DNA from: Aneurinibacillus soli
Lineage (GTDB): Bacteria > Bacillota > Bacilli > Aneurinibacillales > Aneurinibacillaceae
Assembly (NCBI RefSeq): GCF_002355375.1
Contig: NZ_AP017312.1
Coordinates: 3,117,001-3,181,000 of the forward strand
Reading direction: 5' to 3'
DNA length: 64,000 nucleotides
Position numbers and translations under genes: made by a program. The notes under the pieces are model-generated. The model was not told where the DNA came from, ran no database searches, and was given only the letters and a program-made list of their open reading frames with translations. Below are positions 17,639 through 64,000 of the stretch, piece after piece (the stretch's first letter is position 1; each line of letters opens with the position of its first letter).

Positions 17639-17671
17639 TAGAGAAGCTTACAATTTACTATGATTTGCGAT

Positions 17672-17832
17672 TCTCGTTAGGCGAGGCTCCAGTTCAAACA
17701 CAGGCCACTGCCCGGAAACGTCGAAAGACGCCAATGGGTAGAACAGGTATTGCCGGATTAAGGCTTTACTTAACGTGGCTGAGTCAGCGGACTCTACGTT
17801 GTTCTGTGCCAAAGCTCAACCAGGGGGAATGC
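17672..17832 (+). promoter_or_regulatory. M-box (ykoK) magnesium riboswitch
   Basis: It contains the hallmark blocks of the M-box: GTTAGGCGAGGCTCC at 17676-17690, the CACTGCCCGGAAACGTCGAAAGACGCCAATGGG segment (in pieces), and the closing GCCAAAGCTCAACC. It lies ahead of a CorA gene, and a terminator hairpin intervenes (17882-17922). The known mechanism is termination when Mg2+ is sufficient. Confidence 0.95.
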
Positions 17833-17881
17833 ACAAAGCGCGTTTTCGCGTGCTTTTTGTCGTGGCGTGACTGCATATGGT

Positions 17882-22464: not shown

Positions 22465-22497
22465 AAGAACATAACAACAAACAATATCCAAACAGCT

Positions 22498-22772
22498 TTG
22501 ATGGAGAGAGATGCCAGACATGATTCTTCAGAGAGCCGGTGGTTGCTGCGAACCGGTGAATCCCCTGACATTTGAGCGCTCCTGAGCTGGCAGATTGAAC
22601 GATTCATTCCAGTAGGTCTGCACGGTCGCTCCGTTATCAGCGCTGGTCACGCAGGTGACTAGATGAGGTTGCTGTTGCGAAACAGCGACAAATGAGGGTG
22701 GTACCGCGAAATAAACCTTTCGTCCCTCACTGCAGCATACATGTAGTGAGCGCGAGAGGTTTTTTATTTTTT
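22498..22772 (+). promoter_or_regulatory. serA: T-box riboswitch (Ser) controlling serA
   Basis: Stem I consensus (AGAGAGCCGGTGGTTGCTGCGAACCGG in parts, 22531-22556), the T-box core GAGGGTGGTACCGCG near 22694-22708, and a terminator that includes CTCACT/AGTGAG and AACCT/AGGTT and ends in TTTTTTATTTTTT. The specifier position reads AGC (Ser) in TTTGAGCGCTCCTGAG by pattern, in keeping with the serine-biosynthesis gene that follows. Confidence 0.93.
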
Positions 22773-53838: not shown

Positions 53839-53971
53839 ATTATCAGAAAAAAGATATATCGATATTCAGGTAGCACAAATACAATTGCTGTATCTGATTC
53901 GTTCCCATGCCAAATAAATCTGCACCTATAACGCTAACAGAAAGCAGCAGGTATTGTGCTCAATACCAGAT

Positions 53972-54113
53972 CGATCCTTCTCCCATCCAGACTATACTGT
54001 CGGTCCCGGAATTGCACCAGGTCAGCATTGGTTCAGACGAACCGCAGCTCACGGACTGAAGGGGCATGTCCCCCTATCACCGCCGGTCGGGAATTTCACC
54101 CCGCCCCGAAGGA
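53972..54113 (-). promoter_or_regulatory. FMN riboswitch (RFN element)
   Basis: On the minus strand the element opens with CTTCGGGGCGGGGTGAAATT (54113 leftwards), then CCCGACCGGCGGT, and closes with CAGTATAGTCTGGATGGGAG. These are the diagnostic RFN blocks. When FMN binds, the downstream terminator forms and the rib operon is shut off. Confidence 0.97.
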
Positions 54114-54137
54114 TATTACGTATGAAAATGTAGGTTT

Positions 54138-56997: not shown

Positions 56998-57010
56998 GCA
57001 GAAAATAAGA

Positions 57011-57047
57011 AAAGGTACATGGTGCATTTGCTCCATGTACCTTTTCC
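57011..57047 (+). terminator. Terminator after the chemoreceptor gene
   Basis: AAAAGGTACATGG/CCATGTACCTTTT around a TGCATTTGCT loop. Confidence 0.85.
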
Positions 57048-57208
57048 ATTCCTTTGACTCTTTTGGATACACGAGGAATATTTGGATTACCTACCAGTAT
57101 AGCAGGACAAAAATGATCGGAAGTACAGTAGACAGCTTTTTTCATGTACACAGTATAAAACAACCTCGCAAAATCAAGGGATTTGTCCTTTTCTTAGGAA
57201 TGTATCTT

Positions 57209-58432
57209 TTATTTTTTACGGCGTAACAATAATTCGAGTTCCTCGAAGGTTTCTACTGTTTGTGCTAGTTCCCATATTTTATCTAAGTTACCGAATCCTC
57301 TTAGGACATACTGGTTCCACAAACGCATTTGTTGGGGCTGTGTCATTCCTAATCGTTCCCATAATTTGTCCTTTAGCATACTGTAATCCATCTTCTTCGG
57401 AACATCACAAATAACCTCAACCTGTTCTAATTCTTCCGCCTGTGATGCAGCAACTGCCTGCATGCCCTCTTCAAATTCCTCTTTCCTTCGATGAAAAGCC
57501 TGTACAAACTCTCTCCTCAATCTTTCTTCTTCCACTGCATCACTTAACACAATTTCCTCTTTGACAAGCAATGCTGTGGAAAGACTCATTCTATATCCCT
57601 TATTTAAAGCAAAGGCACGGAAAGGGTGTGTCTTTTCATCTAAAATAAAACGATGGACTGAAAACTCAATTCGCTCATCCGTTGAATACACGTAATATAA
57701 GCTTCTAACTTCAAGCGAAATATTTACGCTTTTTTTGTGGTAACCAAAAATATCGAATAAAGAATGGTCACTCTGTAAGCCGCTTAATAGCTCTTTCCAC
57801 TTTTTGTCCTCGGTCGTTTCTGTGCATAAATCAACTTCAGCCTCCCAAAGATGTAAGACATGGCGTTTCATATCGAGAGTCATTTCCATTTCTTCAACAA
57901 ACCAGATAGTTTCTAGCCCTTTATCTTTAAAATACTGATTTCGCTTCTGAATAAGCTTAACTAATCCTGCATCCTTATTGGCACTAACATTTGTCAAAAT
58001 AGAAATCGCACTTTCTTCTCCCTTATATCGAACCAGAATATCAGGGTAGTGCTTCCACTTCTCTTCTGCTTTAGCTTCTACGCCGTATTCAACATTTAAC
58101 CCTTCCTTAATTCGTTCCTGCGTTTTTAGCTCATTGTAAATAACATCTTTAATAATAGAGTGTTTTTCAGATTCGCGTGTTGTTTGTTGATTATATGTAT
58201 CATGTGCTTGAGAAAGCATACAAGCTTTGCCCGATAAATGAAAAAAATGTGTTTTCCTTTTCTCACTCTCTCTTGCTTTTAGTCTGAGAAACTCTTTGCA
58301 AAACGGGCAGGTTAATGCTCCTTTTTCCCCAAGTTTTTTTAATTTCTCTAATGCTGTTTTTCTGTCATATCCAGATTCCGCTATATATTCTTCGATGTAT
58401 AAGGTACCTCCTTCATAAGCAGTGAATTGCAT
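57209..58432 (-). CDS. CoiA-like putative nuclease, 407 aa (fourth gene of the TerB/helicase operon)
   Basis: The N-terminal third resembles competence protein CoiA-like proteins: LTCPFCKEFLRLKARESEKRKTHFFHLSGKACM (C-P-x-C at 42-45, then H-F-x-H and a Cys, a likely zinc-binding module), followed by a PD-(D/E)xK-like core (HSIIKDVIYNEL; KHYPDILVRYKGEESAISIL, with the Asp near 131 and Glu/Ser near 140). The C-terminal half is helical and rich in charged residues. ATG 58432 lies 6 bases after GAGGTG. It is 26 bases downstream of the helicase stop, so it is part of the same operon. The nuclease activity is inferred. Confidence 0.7.
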   Translation of the reverse strand: MQFTAYEGGTLYIEEYIAESGYDRKTALEKLKKLGEKGALTCPFCKEFLRLKARESEKRKTHFFHLSGKACMLSQAHDTYNQQTTRESEKHSIIKDVIYNELKTQERIKEGLNVEYGVEAKAEEKWKHYPDILVRYKGEESAISILTNVSANKDAGLVKLIQKRNQYFKDKGLETIWFVEEMEMTLDMKRHVLHLWEAEVDLCTETTEDKKWKELLSGLQSDHSLFDIFGYHKKSVNISLEVRSLYYVYSTDERIEFSVHRFILDEKTHPFRAFALNKGYRMSLSTALLVKEEIVLSDAVEEERLRREFVQAFHRRKEEFEEGMQAVAASQAEELEQVEVICDVPKKMDYSMLKDKLWERLGMTQPQQMRLWNQYVLRGFGNLDKIWELAQTVETFEELELLLRRKK

Positions 58433-58458
58433 GATATTCACCTCATTAGCTTATTTTT

Positions 58459-60594
58459 TCATTCAACAAGACGAAATTGAAACTTATTTAAATATTGTTT
58501 TGTTTCTTCAATATTCATTTCATGTGCTATGTGCATATCTATCTGCAAACTTTCAGGTAAGCATGACGAATATTTTGATTGAAAAAACTCCGTTTCTTTT
58601 ACATAGGGCAGTAAATCTTCTGCTTTCCAGTCCTTATTTCGCATTGCCTCAATAACTTTCTTAAATTCACAGACCTTATTTATCTCAATTCTGTAAATTC
58701 GATCACGAATATGAACAGAGTCGGTTTCTAATACAGCCCGCATCATCCATACTAATGTATTGGCAATAACAGTTCCTGTAAACGGCTCGAAAATAATACC
58801 TTCTTTTTGTTTCCAAGCAATCCGTTGATTCGGAGTCACATCATACCATTGATACCTTTTTCGCATATCGTGTAGTTCATCCATTGCTGTTTCATTCATA
58901 TAAGAAAAGTTTTTCTCCGAGCAAAGAAGCTCTACCATTTTTTCACCAATGCACTCATGAACTTTGCCTCCCGAACTTTCGAATCGTGGCGGTTTCCCAT
59001 TCGATGCTTGCTCTACATAAATCTTATCTTTTTTGTTATCAATCACCTTGATGGCCCATAACTTGCCGGCAAGAATAATGTTATCCCCTTCATGAAAAAA
59101 GCCATTCTTGCTTAATTGCCCAATCTTCTTCATTCCTGCGTGTACACTGTATTCTTGTGGTGTCATAAACACTGTATAAAAATCCTTACTCCGTAAAATT
59201 CTTTCTCCTTCCAAGCCGACAATGTATTCATGCTTCCCAACGATTTTTTCTAACATTTCCTTTTCCAACATAAAATCAATTAGCTGCATGATTCCATCTA
59301 TCGGGATATGAACAAAAGCTCCGTTTCTTTGGATCTGCTCTATGATTTCACTTTCTGTAATTCCGTTCGTTTCCTGACAAATGGAAAGTAGCTGGTGAAA
59401 TAAAATATCATAAGGAAGCAAATAATGATTGGCTGGCTCTATCCACTTTTCAAGCAATAACTCCATGACAGCAGTAGACTGCAGTAAGCTATTTGCGCTC
59501 GTTGTATATAATTGCAAAACATGAGGCGAATCTTGTTTTCTCCCCGAACGTCCTAATCGTTGCTTTAAAGATGAAACGGTAAAAGTGCTATCAATCTGCA
59601 TGACTAAATCAAGCTTTCCAATATCAATCCCTAATTCCAATGTACTTGTACAAACCACACTTTTGGGAACAGAAGCAGAAGCCATTTGTTCCTCTACATA
59701 CTCTCTTTCAGTTTTGTCAATCGAGGAGTGATGTGCATAATATTTCTGCTCCTGTCCATTTTTCTTTGCAAGACGATTAAGCAAAACGGTTGTCTCTTCT
59801 ACTTCCCCACGGGTATTACAAAAAATAATGGACTGTTCTTCCTCTGTAAGCTCATAAATATCCTCAAACAATTCCAGTGATTTTTTTCCTTGTTCCTCTA
59901 CTGAGAAGTGCATAAGAGAATATAAGATATCTTTTTGATTACCATCTGATTCAATAATCAGAACATTTTCAGGGCTTTGTGGATTTACCCAGCGCTTCAC
60001 AAAATCAAAGTTGCTAATTGTGGCAGAAAGACCAACAATTCTAGGACGAGCTGTACAATATGGCTCTAGTCTTGAAAGCAATGAACGCAAATGTGTTCCT
60101 CTTTCCGTCCCAAGAAAAGAATGGATTTCGTCAATGACAATAAAATCTAACGAATGAAAGATGCTTTTTACTTGCCCTGTTCGATTAATGAATAAACTCT
60201 CTAGCGATTCGGGAGTAATCTGTAGAATGCCCGCAGGTTTTTTTATAAATTTCTTCTTTTGACTTTGATTGACGTCGCCATGCCATCGATATACAGGAAT
60301 ATTCGTATATGTGCATAATTTTTCAATTCGCTCAAACTGATTGTTAATTAACGCTTTCAGCGGTGAAATATAAAGCGCTTTTAGCTGACTGTCCGCTGTA
60401 TCTTCAATCTTTGTCAAAATGGGTAAAAAAGCAGCCTCTGTTTTACCAGAAGCTGTTCCTGAAGAGATAATTACATCCTTATCCGTCTGAATCACAGCAG
60501 GGATCGTTTGATTTTGAACAGGAGTAAAAGCCTCCCATCCCATATCCCATACTCTTTTCTGGATGTTTTTAGACAAAAGAGAAAAGGCACTCAT
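58459..60594 (-). CDS. Lhr-like superfamily 2 DEAD/DEAH helicase, 711 aa
   Basis: An ATP-dependent helicase with the Lhr-type order of motifs: TPVQNQTIP (Q-like), SGTASGKTEA (Walker A, 45-54), YISPLKALINNQ, DEIH (155-158), GLSATIS, then in RecA2 TSTLELGIDIG and LKQRLGRSGRK (about 355-366), followed by about 300 residues of winged-helix and accessory domains. It lies 23 bases downstream of the ATPase gene. ATG 60594 (MSAFSLL) has GGGGAG 8 bases upstream. Similar helicases accompany DUF2791 ATPases in BREX-like and Ter-domain systems. DNA is the probable substrate. Confidence 0.9.
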   Translation of the reverse strand: MSAFSLLSKNIQKRVWDMGWEAFTPVQNQTIPAVIQTDKDVIISSGTASGKTEAAFLPILTKIEDTADSQLKALYISPLKALINNQFERIEKLCTYTNIPVYRWHGDVNQSQKKKFIKKPAGILQITPESLESLFINRTGQVKSIFHSLDFIVIDEIHSFLGTERGTHLRSLLSRLEPYCTARPRIVGLSATISNFDFVKRWVNPQSPENVLIIESDGNQKDILYSLMHFSVEEQGKKSLELFEDIYELTEEEQSIIFCNTRGEVEETTVLLNRLAKKNGQEQKYYAHHSSIDKTEREYVEEQMASASVPKSVVCTSTLELGIDIGKLDLVMQIDSTFTVSSLKQRLGRSGRKQDSPHVLQLYTTSANSLLQSTAVMELLLEKWIEPANHYLLPYDILFHQLLSICQETNGITESEIIEQIQRNGAFVHIPIDGIMQLIDFMLEKEMLEKIVGKHEYIVGLEGERILRSKDFYTVFMTPQEYSVHAGMKKIGQLSKNGFFHEGDNIILAGKLWAIKVIDNKKDKIYVEQASNGKPPRFESSGGKVHECIGEKMVELLCSEKNFSYMNETAMDELHDMRKRYQWYDVTPNQRIAWKQKEGIIFEPFTGTVIANTLVWMMRAVLETDSVHIRDRIYRIEINKVCEFKKVIEAMRNKDWKAEDLLPYVKETEFFQSKYSSCLPESLQIDMHIAHEMNIEETKQYLNKFQFRLVE

Positions 60595-60617
60595 CAAACA
60601 TTCTCCCCTTCCCATTT

Positions 60618-61937
60618 TTATTCTGTCGCTTTTTGAAAACGGGAGAATCGCTCTTTTTTATGATTCGAATCTTCTCCCTGCTGCTGTTCACCGAATAACT
60701 GTGCCCGATCTATTACAGGGTTTTGCTGTAAAATATTTAAAGCCCCAATAAAAGTCCGTACTACATCGCGAGTAGTAATATTCTCCTCAGCACCTGGACG
60801 AGCGTATTCTATACGGATAAATGATTGAATCTCCTCAGATGAAACGTTCGCTTCGTATCCATAATGAACAGCATGTATATCTCTTACTTTTTGTAGAAGA
60901 AGATACAATTCATCATACTTTAAAGGTGTTAGCTTAATAACAGGTTGAGATAAATCTCGATGCTCATTCGTCTCAAACCGATTGGATTGCAAGCGGCTTT
61001 TCAACGCAGCATAACTAAATAATCCCCTCCGCTCATCTTCTAAAAATTCTTCTGTCCCGCCAAATGTAATAAATAAACCTCCGACATTTCCCTGTAACGT
61101 ATCGTTATATATTTTTAAAATCATTTCATAGTTTTTATCCCGTGCCTGTGGGTGGGTAATTTTATAAAGGTTAATGGCTTCATCAAAGTTGATGACAAGA
61201 CCCGCATACCCAATCTGGCGCACGAATTGAGATAACACTTTTATGTACTCGTAGTAATTAGCATCATTAATAATATCCCGAACCCCAAGGTCTTCACGCG
61301 CTTCTGTTTTCGTTGTATATTCGCCGCGTAACCAGCGTAAAGCACACCGTTGTAAATGGGAATTATCTTCGACAAAACCTTTAAAATAAAGCGTAAGAAT
61401 ACGGGCAAAGTCATATCCGCCAACCAAGTCATCCATTTTTGCTGTAATGCTTACAATCTCGTTTTCCACATCTTTAATAAATTCTGGATTATCAAACTCT
61501 ACTGCTCCATACCCTTTCTTCTGAGTAACACGCGTCTGCACTTCGCTAATCCATTTATCCAGAATAGTCGGCAATGCATTTCCTTCAGGAACCGTAGCAA
61601 TCGCCAAATTTTTCATAAGCTCGGAATAGGTCACAACGGATTTCCCTTCACTGCCATATAATCGGCGCTCAGGTGTAAAATCTGCTTTTGCTACTACGAA
61701 CTTTTCTTTAAAGGCAATCTGCTGTACAAGTGCTTGAATAAAACTTTTCCCGCTGCCGAACTTTCCAATAAAGAACTTGATGACAGAAGAGCCTTCTTTT
61801 ACATCCGTCAAATCATTTAAAATCTGTTTTGCTTCTTCCGCCCTGCCCACTAGGATATATTCCAATCCCCGATTGGGTACGACACCACCATATAAAGAAT
61901 TTAGAATCGCTGTTGAGTCTTTCTTTTTTATTTTCAT
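60618..61937 (-). CDS. BrxC/BrxD-like (DUF2791) P-loop ATPase, 439 aa
   Basis: An AAA/STAND-like ATPase. GKFGSGKS (58-65) is the Walker A motif, and LVINFDEAINL (247-257) the Walker B with catalytic Glu; LFITFGGTEEFLEDERRGLFSYAALKSRL carries sensor/arginine features, a block typical of the BREX ATP-binding (DUF2791) group. YGGVVPNRGLEYILVGR at the start is a second family hallmark. Its ATG overlaps the stop of the TerB gene by 4 bases (ATGA), so the two are translationally coupled. Confidence 0.88.
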   Translation of the reverse strand: MKIKKKDSTAILNSLYGGVVPNRGLEYILVGRAEEAKQILNDLTDVKEGSSVIKFFIGKFGSGKSFIQALVQQIAFKEKFVVAKADFTPERRLYGSEGKSVVTYSELMKNLAIATVPEGNALPTILDKWISEVQTRVTQKKGYGAVEFDNPEFIKDVENEIVSITAKMDDLVGGYDFARILTLYFKGFVEDNSHLQRCALRWLRGEYTTKTEAREDLGVRDIINDANYYEYIKVLSQFVRQIGYAGLVINFDEAINLYKITHPQARDKNYEMILKIYNDTLQGNVGGLFITFGGTEEFLEDERRGLFSYAALKSRLQSNRFETNEHRDLSQPVIKLTPLKYDELYLLLQKVRDIHAVHYGYEANVSSEEIQSFIRIEYARPGAEENITTRDVVRTFIGALNILQQNPVIDRAQLFGEQQQGEDSNHKKERFSRFQKATE

Positions 61938-63763
61938 GACGTGACCTCCTGTAGCTTGGCTAAAATGTATGTATACTCCTCCGTAATTTCCAGTTCATCT
62001 CCATCTTGTTCAATCAAATTATCACCAAGGTATTCATCTGCTTTTTCATTCAGCGCATCTAAAAACATCCCCAGCATGATCCCCTTACCTTTTAAAAACC
62101 GAGTAGCTTCTTGGGCATTTCGTCGCAAATGTTTAAACCCTTGCAGAAATTCAATTTCAATTTCTGACAGTTCCTCAAGGAATCCTTCGCCGTCTTCCTC
62201 ATCTGTATCAAAAACAGACAGTGGCAAAATAAATGAATTTTCCTCCTTAGCTTCTTTTTCCTTAACAGAAGCTACCACCATTTCCTCTTCCTCATGGTCC
62301 GTAAACCGTTCCTCAAATATTTGTTGTAATTCTTGACTTTCTTTATCCAATTGCTGAATTCGTTCTATGTTAAATTCAATCGCCAGTTTCGGTAGAGCTT
62401 CCTCTTCAGACCTCCGAGGAATGATGCCACCTTCCGCTACTTCTGATTTCTCCTGTACTTTTACAAAGCGAGACTTTTGCTTCGAGCCTGTGGTATTTTG
62501 CTGCGAAAATTTTTCTATCATTTTTTCTTCCATGTCCTCTGGCAAATTCTCAACAAGAACTTTAATTTTCCGCTTTTCGCCCGCTAATGTTCGAGCAACA
62601 TTTTCGGACATGCGGAATAGTGCTGTAATTTGCTTATACATTTTCTCTGTAGGCATACGTTCTGCCACCTGAACCTTGTATTCCCTGGCTTTCCGCCCCA
62701 TAACAGCCCCACCAAATAAATATCTTGTTTCCTCCTTCATTTTTATAGGCATCCACTCTTCCAGTATTTTTTTCTGATCGCTGGCATAGCTGCTTTGTAG
62801 TAAAGGCAACGACTCTTTGAAAACTTTATAGATTTTATTTTTATTTTGCTGGAAAAACTGTGTTTCTCGATAGTCAGCAATATACGGCTTCCAAAGTGTA
62901 AAAGAGACTTTATGCAGCTGTTCTTCCTTCTCTTTCACTTTTTCATATATAGAAAAACGACTTGATTCCTCTATACGGTTCACAGCTTTATTTTCTGCTA
63001 ATGCAATCTCATGTAAAAAGTCTTCTTTCCACTGTAATAAGTAATATTCTAGTTTCGGATGACGTTCTTTATAACTTTCATATAGTCGTACAATCATGCT
63101 GATATTAAATGCCGCATTTTGATTAAAACTGTAATTAATCAGTTCATATACAAATAAGAAAATGTAGCTCATATCCGTATCAAGATAGTTCCCCTGCAAA
63201 ACCTGGGAACGCCAGTAAAAGTACCATGCTTTTTGCTGATCATCTAGGTGATCGAATGTCGTATAGTAAGCTTGTAAAGGAATGTGAAAACATTTCCTGC
63301 CGACACACTGCGAATATTGCAATGAATTCTTAATGAACCCAGAATGATAAGTTGAGAACTCAATGTAAGTACCACTTCTACTCCTATGCGGCTGCCCTAT
63401 ACTCTTGATCTCTTCCAAGATGTGCATAGGTATCTTCAAGTGCTGAAACTCAGACAAAATCAACTCAGTTTCATTGTAAAAAGGGGGCATGGAAATAGAA
63501 ACCGGCTCAACCGTTTTCCTTGGGTTTTCTTTAATCATTTCAACTTCCTCCACTTTTACAGGTAAAGCATCCCCATTCAACTGTTCCACCCAACGTCTCA
63601 TGAATAAACTATCGATAAAACCCAGAAAAATTGGCACGTATGTCCAGCAAAAGAGAAGATACAACGCACCCCTTATATACTTTCCAACATAAAAATGATG
63701 CGCCCCTATCCCACCTAAAAACAACGCCAAAAGAACCCCTGTACCTACTGATTTTTGCTTCAC
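61934..63763 (-). CDS. TM2-TerB_N-TerB_C domain protein, 609 aa
   Basis: First gene of the operon. Residues 1-57 form a TM2 domain (GVLLALFLGGIGAHHFYVGKYIRGALYLLF; FLGFIDSLFM), two helices with the conserved G-x-x-G-x-H-x-F-Y-x-G turn. Then a TerB_N-like region (about 85-330; GTYIEFSTYHSGF near its start and KAWYFYWRSQVLQGNYLDTDMSYIFLFVYELIN) and a C-terminal TerB_C region (about 500-609; EIEFLQGFKHLRRNAQEATRFLKGKGIMLGMFLDALNEKADEYLGDNLIE). An acidic low-complexity linker connects them. Starts at GTG 63763 after GGGGG. Ter-domain proteins are linked to stress and phage defence. The TM2 part should hold the system at the membrane. Confidence 0.85.
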   Translation of the reverse strand: MKQKSVGTGVLLALFLGGIGAHHFYVGKYIRGALYLLFCWTYVPIFLGFIDSLFMRRWVEQLNGDALPVKVEEVEMIKENPRKTVEPVSISMPPFYNETELILSEFQHLKIPMHILEEIKSIGQPHRSRSGTYIEFSTYHSGFIKNSLQYSQCVGRKCFHIPLQAYYTTFDHLDDQQKAWYFYWRSQVLQGNYLDTDMSYIFLFVYELINYSFNQNAAFNISMIVRLYESYKERHPKLEYYLLQWKEDFLHEIALAENKAVNRIEESSRFSIYEKVKEKEEQLHKVSFTLWKPYIADYRETQFFQQNKNKIYKVFKESLPLLQSSYASDQKKILEEWMPIKMKEETRYLFGGAVMGRKAREYKVQVAERMPTEKMYKQITALFRMSENVARTLAGEKRKIKVLVENLPEDMEEKMIEKFSQQNTTGSKQKSRFVKVQEKSEVAEGGIIPRRSEEEALPKLAIEFNIERIQQLDKESQELQQIFEERFTDHEEEEMVVASVKEKEAKEENSFILPLSVFDTDEEDGEGFLEELSEIEIEFLQGFKHLRRNAQEATRFLKGKGIMLGMFLDALNEKADEYLGDNLIEQDGDELEITEEYTYILAKLQEVTS

Positions 63764-64000
63764 TCCCTAACCCCCAAGTACATAGTCCTATTTATATTAT
63801 ATTAAATTTTCTAACAAACATATATTTTAAAATAAGGTATTTAAAAGAAAATTCTCTTGTAGCGACTATTTCTTACGTGATTTTTTCTGTGGTGATAATT
63901 TTTACTCAAGAATCAGAAATGTGGAAACGCCAAGTCTTGTGTATGTTCAAGAAGCTCTTTATATGAGTGAACTGGGGAGCAATGCATATCAAAACGTAAC
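63764..64000. other. Upstream region of the TerB/helicase operon, cut by the window edge
   Basis: AT-rich sequence (about 240 bases) that should contain the operon promoter on the minus strand. I cannot pick out a single convincing promoter or operator. No gene with an SD is seen. Confidence 0.5.

Follow-up and report, generated by a model that had tools for sequence, protein, structure and literature searches.

Three of the four genes in a tightly packed operon of Aneurinibacillus soli are identified here, from profile matches, as Shango, an already published three-gene anti-phage system, and appear from a comparison of relatives to belong to a branch of Shango, found in Bacillota, in which the SngA subunit carries a TM2 membrane domain. 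The fourth gene (gene D) encodes a CoiA-like protein and is best seen as a lineage-specific accessory, not as a general part of Shango. Taken jointly—a TM2-branch Shango working by a loader–helicase mechanism, with gene D as an accessory of this lineage—this is the reading we consider likely.

Organisation of the operon

The ORF list and our reading of the sequence place four open reading frames, in the order sngA-sngB-sngC-gene D, on the minus strand between positions 57209 and 63763 of the window (the whole 64,000-nucleotide stretch of DNA that was analysed):

61934–63763, minus strand: sngA (A), TM2-TerB_N-TerB_C protein, 609 aa, GTG start (PADLOC SngA and Pfam)
60618–61937, minus strand: sngB (B), BrxC/BrxD-family AAA+ ATPase, 439 aa (PADLOC SngB and Pfam BrxC_BrxD)
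58459–60594, minus strand: sngC (C), SF2 Lhr/BrxHI-like helicase, 711 aa (PADLOC SngC and Pfam)
57209–58432, minus strand: gene D, CoiA-like accessory, 407 aa (CoiA_N below cut-off, hhalign against CoiA, AlphaFold)
57014–57041, no strand assigned: inverted repeat with T tail, likely terminator, between the operon and a convergent MCP gene (sequence reading; plus-strand version by scan)

The first two genes overlap by four bases (ATGA), with gaps of 23 bases from sngB to sngC and of 26 bases from sngC to gene D when starts linked to a ribosome-binding site are used; the ORFs thus reproduce in full the single-strand layout and junction lengths described in the first-pass annotation. For sngC, the start preceded by a ribosome-binding site was chosen, the ORF itself opening at 60615, and from this start the protein has the same length (711 aa) as its close relatives; gene D is 407 aa from its equivalent start, or 410 aa if the GTG at 58441 is used. 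The short junctions, together with the terminator-like repeat that follows gene D, suggest that all four genes form one transcript. A promoter scan at the locus performed no better than on shuffled sequences.

The first three genes correspond to Shango

Each of the proteins A, B and C finds its best PADLOC match in the corresponding Shango model: A in SngA (E 3.7e-58, residues 57–603), B in SngB (E 5.2e-172; 570.8 bits, against 169.6 bits for the BrxD model) and C in SngC (E 5.9e-217; 720.8 bits, against 467.2 bits for BrxHI). All three components that define the system are present, and all are adjacent in one operon. SngB matches Pfam BrxC_BrxD (E 4.5e-151) and has a Walker B motif reading LVINFDEA, whilst SngC matches DEAD (9e-38), Helicase_C (6e-21) and WH_Lhr (3e-6); further elements can be placed as follows:

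61743–61766, minus strand: Walker A of SngB, GKFGSGKS (sequence reading)
63611–63757, minus strand: TM2 membrane domain of SngA, residues 3–51 (Pfam PF05154, E 4.7e-13)
62894–63355, minus strand: TerB_N domain of SngA, residues 137–290 (Pfam PF13208, E 1.7e-25)
61970–62392, minus strand: TerB_C domain of SngA, residues 458–598 (Pfam PF15615, E 4.8e-17)

Pfam and sequence agree with the domains first proposed for these proteins: TM2, TerB_N and TerB_C in A, an ATPase with both Walker motifs in B and an Lhr-like helicase in C. The Shango operon of P. aeruginosa PA14, when expressed in PAO1, reduced the plating of many phages (PMC10250203), and the same paper notes an independent report of modest activity in E. 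coli; SngC groups with BrxHI, DruE and DpdJ, on one branch of SF2 helicases with immune roles (PMC12278908). The operon described here shares with those of PA14 and E. coli the three families, their adjacency and their order (TerB protein, ATPase, helicase), but differs in the TM2 domain of its SngA, in the CoiA-like gene that follows sngC and in its host, a member of the Bacilli. By analogy with these tested systems we take the A. soli copy to protect against phage, such that the initial reading of the operon as a defence locus appears right; the description of its core trio as a 'known but uncharacterised association' gives way to the name Shango, on the strength of the PADLOC matches and the published tests.

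Two other assignments might be drawn from the same domains. As in the BrxD–BrxHI dyad of BREX type 2, an ATPase and a helicase of homologous families are encoded by adjacent genes, and SngB and SngC are indeed related to BrxD and BrxHI; the Shango models nevertheless outscore their BREX counterparts by far, the sequences lying much nearer SngB and SngC. BREX type 2 also requires PglZ, PglX and BrxC beside BrxD/BrxHI, and in the operon and the adjacent genes scanned this set was not found, with none of PglZ, PglX, PglW or BrxC seen beside the operon and no PglZ, PglX or PglW domain detected there by Pfam. Membership of BREX was rejected on these PADLOC scores and locus contents, and we give it next to no weight. 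Equally, the TerB_N and TerB_C domains of SngA could be taken to indicate a Ter-type metal or stress response in place of phage defence, a proposal we regard as very improbable: other Ter genes were not seen in the operon or the adjacent genes scanned, and the same triad has been shown by experiment to act in phage defence.

A TM2-SngA branch in Bacillota

Searches with SngB covered 399 genomes sampled across the phylum and a further 400 from the class, and returned many relatives, of which the neighbourhoods of 38 were taken; 30 of these hold recognisable A, B and C genes, and among the others are loci cut by a contig end, rearranged loci and distant BREX-like relatives. A TM2 domain is present in six of the 33 SngA proteins inspected, namely that of A. 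soli and those of five other Bacillota (G372, G135, G1045, G1123 and G955), and is seen again in the remnant of a congener (G002). In a tree of SngB, the TM2 carriers fall in one group of eight that includes two members without TM2 (support 94/84, and 100/100 for an inner seven); the TM2 label requires three changes on this tree. Elsewhere, SngA has no predicted transmembrane segment, a different one, or a long unassigned N-terminal region of up to ~900 residues; in two loci (L059:4096-8391 and L060:9764-13456) such regions, of 640–900 residues, match no Pfam family. Because its N-termini vary in this way, we suggest that SngA may serve as the input module of Shango. The 'membrane-tethered sensor' of the first-pass annotation is plausible within the TM2 branch but does not hold as a general feature of Shango.

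Elsewhere among the TM2-type operons, sngC is overlapped by a gene for a UvrD-type helicase, or a Schlafen-group helicase gene sits just ahead of sngA (L155:3481-5985, L152:4155-6098); swappable accessory genes are a possible pattern in operons of this type.

Gene D combines a zinc module and PD-(D/E)xK fold like those of CoiA with a diverged active site

Gene D matches Pfam CoiA_N with an E-value of 1.4e-4, below the cut-off of that family, and a sequence search against solved structures gave no match. Two regions can be distinguished:

58220–58309, minus strand: CxxC...HxxH...C zinc-type module, C45–C74 in 410-aa numbering (C45, C48, H68 and C74 invariant in 28 homologues)
57893–58165, minus strand: PD-(D/E)xK fold region, residues 93–183 (PD134 retained; E and Q/K replaced by S147 and L149)

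Comparison of the gene D family with ten CoiA proteins by hhalign (98.8% probability) pairs PD134 with the CoiA aspartate, S147 with the catalytic glutamate and L149 with the glutamine. An AlphaFold model built from 23 sequences (pLDDT 86.5), used in place of a weak five-sequence model (pLDDT 61), has the order helix-strand-strand-strand-helix-strand, the second core strand beginning with the PD; its PDB neighbours in Foldseek, all at weak E-values, are mostly PD-(D/E)xK proteins and include Holliday junction resolvases, XPB-bound Bax1, BspD6I, RecU and McrC. Gene D is accordingly assigned, from profile and model, both the zinc module and the PD-(D/E)xK fold of the CoiA competence proteins (PF25164/PF06054); profile comparison and structure prediction support the nuclease fold that was at first no more than suspected for the 407-aa protein.

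The active site is where gene D and CoiA differ: gene D has S-x-L where CoiA has its catalytic E-x-Q, the separate CoiA of the same host reading AFEFQ at this position. The 23 close homologues have S, N, T or C at position 147, never an acidic residue, and L or I at 149, with P133, D134, H94 and T150 invariant in the 28 sequences aligned. Standard catalysis has probably been lost or rebuilt in this family, although the diverged site, with these four residues invariant, may still be active. Five distant homologues from a CoiA-like subfamily (L093–L097) have D at 147 (VDYVTG and similar) and still lack K or Q at 149.

Gene D as a probable lineage-specific accessory

Searches with a D-family profile and a CoiA profile found neither gene D nor any CoiA-like gene in the 30 other complete Shango loci (0/30), nor a match among all 38 of the Shango-related loci. 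The D profile itself, tried on CoiA proteins as a control, picks up ten of ten. Approached from the other side, about 25 full-length homologues of gene D occur elsewhere, several on Paenibacillus plasmids, and none adjoins Shango, which for the close homologues is neither adjacent nor found within 1.5-kb flanks or the wider stretches inspected. A role as conserved fourth component was rejected on these searches, run from either side by neighbourhood and by profile. The first-pass annotation had named a fourth gene that seldom accompanies the other three as grounds for refutation, and its idea that all four co-occur finds no more than one decayed pairing in a congener. In the literature searched, no paper connects Shango with genes of the CoiA type.

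In the order to which the host belongs, a small one, gene D is present in A. soli and as unlinked copies in two genomes of the same family (G002 and G007), with fragments in G002 and G003; in the family of G080 (probably Paenibacillaceae) there are matches in 29 of 400 genomes, weak and partial ones counted. The plasmid copies, from Paenibacillus and Planococcus, have varied neighbours. On two Paenibacillus plasmids (L070 and L072), relatives of gene D lie near pairs of an ATPase and a UvrD-type helicase that resemble Gabija. Gene D was also considered as a phage gene and rejected, annotated phage records being without a match; one viral contig has a relative broken into two frames.

The congener G002 retains a decayed Shango locus (L043:1-922), in which ~255 N-terminal residues of a TM2-type SngA (81% identical DNA) lead straight into a fragment of gene D, comprising residues 204–245 (57% identical, and closest to the A. 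soli protein), with a large serine recombinase next to it. As this junction is what a deletion in a four-gene ancestor would leave, the four-gene arrangement appears to predate the species split: the pairing of sngA with gene D would be older than the species and has decayed in G002, gene D having apparently been kept alongside Shango across one speciation or more, a longer time than one would expect a pure passenger to stay.

How, then, should gene D be understood? A proposal that builds on the earlier one, in which it completes a four-gene system as an effector nuclease activated when SngB and SngC engage foreign DNA, can draw on the 26-base junction, the shared operon and the PD-(D/E)xK fold, on the remnant of the same pairing in G002 and on a CoiA-domain protein found among the anti-phage hits of an E. 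coli selection (PMC9519451). A comparable layout is that of Hachiman, in which the helicase HamB is partnered by the effector nuclease HamA (PMC12278908); gene D, however, lacks the residues canonical for catalysis and is not conserved together with its helicase. Nearly all of its close family has S-x-L/I where the catalytic E-x-Q/K would stand, which makes an effector nuclease unlikely, and with the gene missing from all 30 other complete Shango loci examined and the three-gene core alone protecting Pseudomonas (PMC10250203), we judge the four-gene proposal as a whole to be decidedly improbable.

Alternatively, gene D may be a mobile CoiA-like gene in its own right that came to lie behind sngC and shares no more than the transcript, which is by comparison quite possible, if short of an even chance: its homologues stand alone, in many cases on plasmids of Paenibacillus and among unrelated genes, and other Shango loci do without it, yet it was kept in this locus across a species split and is intact, free of stops and correctly spaced. 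A further and more speculative suggestion, one that we think unlikely, is that the catalytically altered CoiA fold was recruited as a fourth subunit of a membrane-anchored Shango, binding entering single-stranded or branched DNA and directing the ATPase–helicase there.

A variable genomic site

The operon occupies a segment that differs in the 92%-identical sister genome G006:

56998–63945, no strand assigned: variable segment holding the operon; G006 has 4.7 kb of different genes (genome comparison)

The flanks match in G006 up to the MCP stop (56997) and again from 63946. One flank contains cyclophilin, DUF123-protein, MCP and riboflavin genes, and the other encodes a GGACT protein as well as a PfkB kinase. 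At this site G006 has anti-sigma-like, ECF-type sigma factor, SecF-like and SecD-like genes (L178:3701-7552), together with the greater part of an HTH-TPR regulator gene that is intact there, names taken from reading the translations, with only the regulator remnant having a Pfam match (RNPP_C). This RNPP-type regulator is 320 aa and intact in G006; the Shango segment ends within it, and the host genome keeps a 131-aa C-terminal remnant at 64010–64405 (L041:3011-3406), just beyond the end of the window at 64,000. With different genes at this site in G006 and a regulator remnant left behind, the operon probably arrived by replacement.

No other recognised defence genes were found beside the operon, and the expectation of a defence-rich neighbourhood is borne out in part: related Shango loci adjoin GmrSD, Nhi/AbiO-like, GajB-like, Mokosh-like and REase genes, but the A. 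soli locus sits among housekeeping genes. Rfam matches above cut-offs in the window are ordinary ones: an FMN riboswitch before the riboflavin genes (53971–54117), an M-box riboswitch (17666–17834) and two T-box leaders (918–1150 and 22489–22730).

Proposed mechanism and implications

No account of how Shango works was found in the literature searched. Helicase loading is the function of AAA+ proteins of the ORC/Cdc6 type. BrxD has been classed among these, and a helicase-loading role has been proposed for the BrxD/BrxHI pair (PMC12839542); by analogy, we infer that the most economical reading of SngB and SngC is as helicase loader and helicase. SngB would oligomerise and load or activate SngC on invading DNA, which SngC would then unwind or strip, stopping phage replication. 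SngA would act as sensor or scaffold and, in the TM2 branch, could tether the machine to the membrane, at the point of phage DNA entry or replication; the TM2 domain suggests that this branch acts near the membrane. With its diverged active site, gene D is less likely to be an effector that cuts than a partner in DNA binding or regulation, or else a co-transcribed passenger.

Even with its TM2 anchor and gene D, the operon is no new kind of system. Were gene D to prove a true fourth subunit, it would link the DNA-uptake machinery to phage defence; as things stand, it offers a natural with/without comparison for Shango, and the TM2-SngA branch provides a concrete, testable hint that the Shango machine can act at the membrane.
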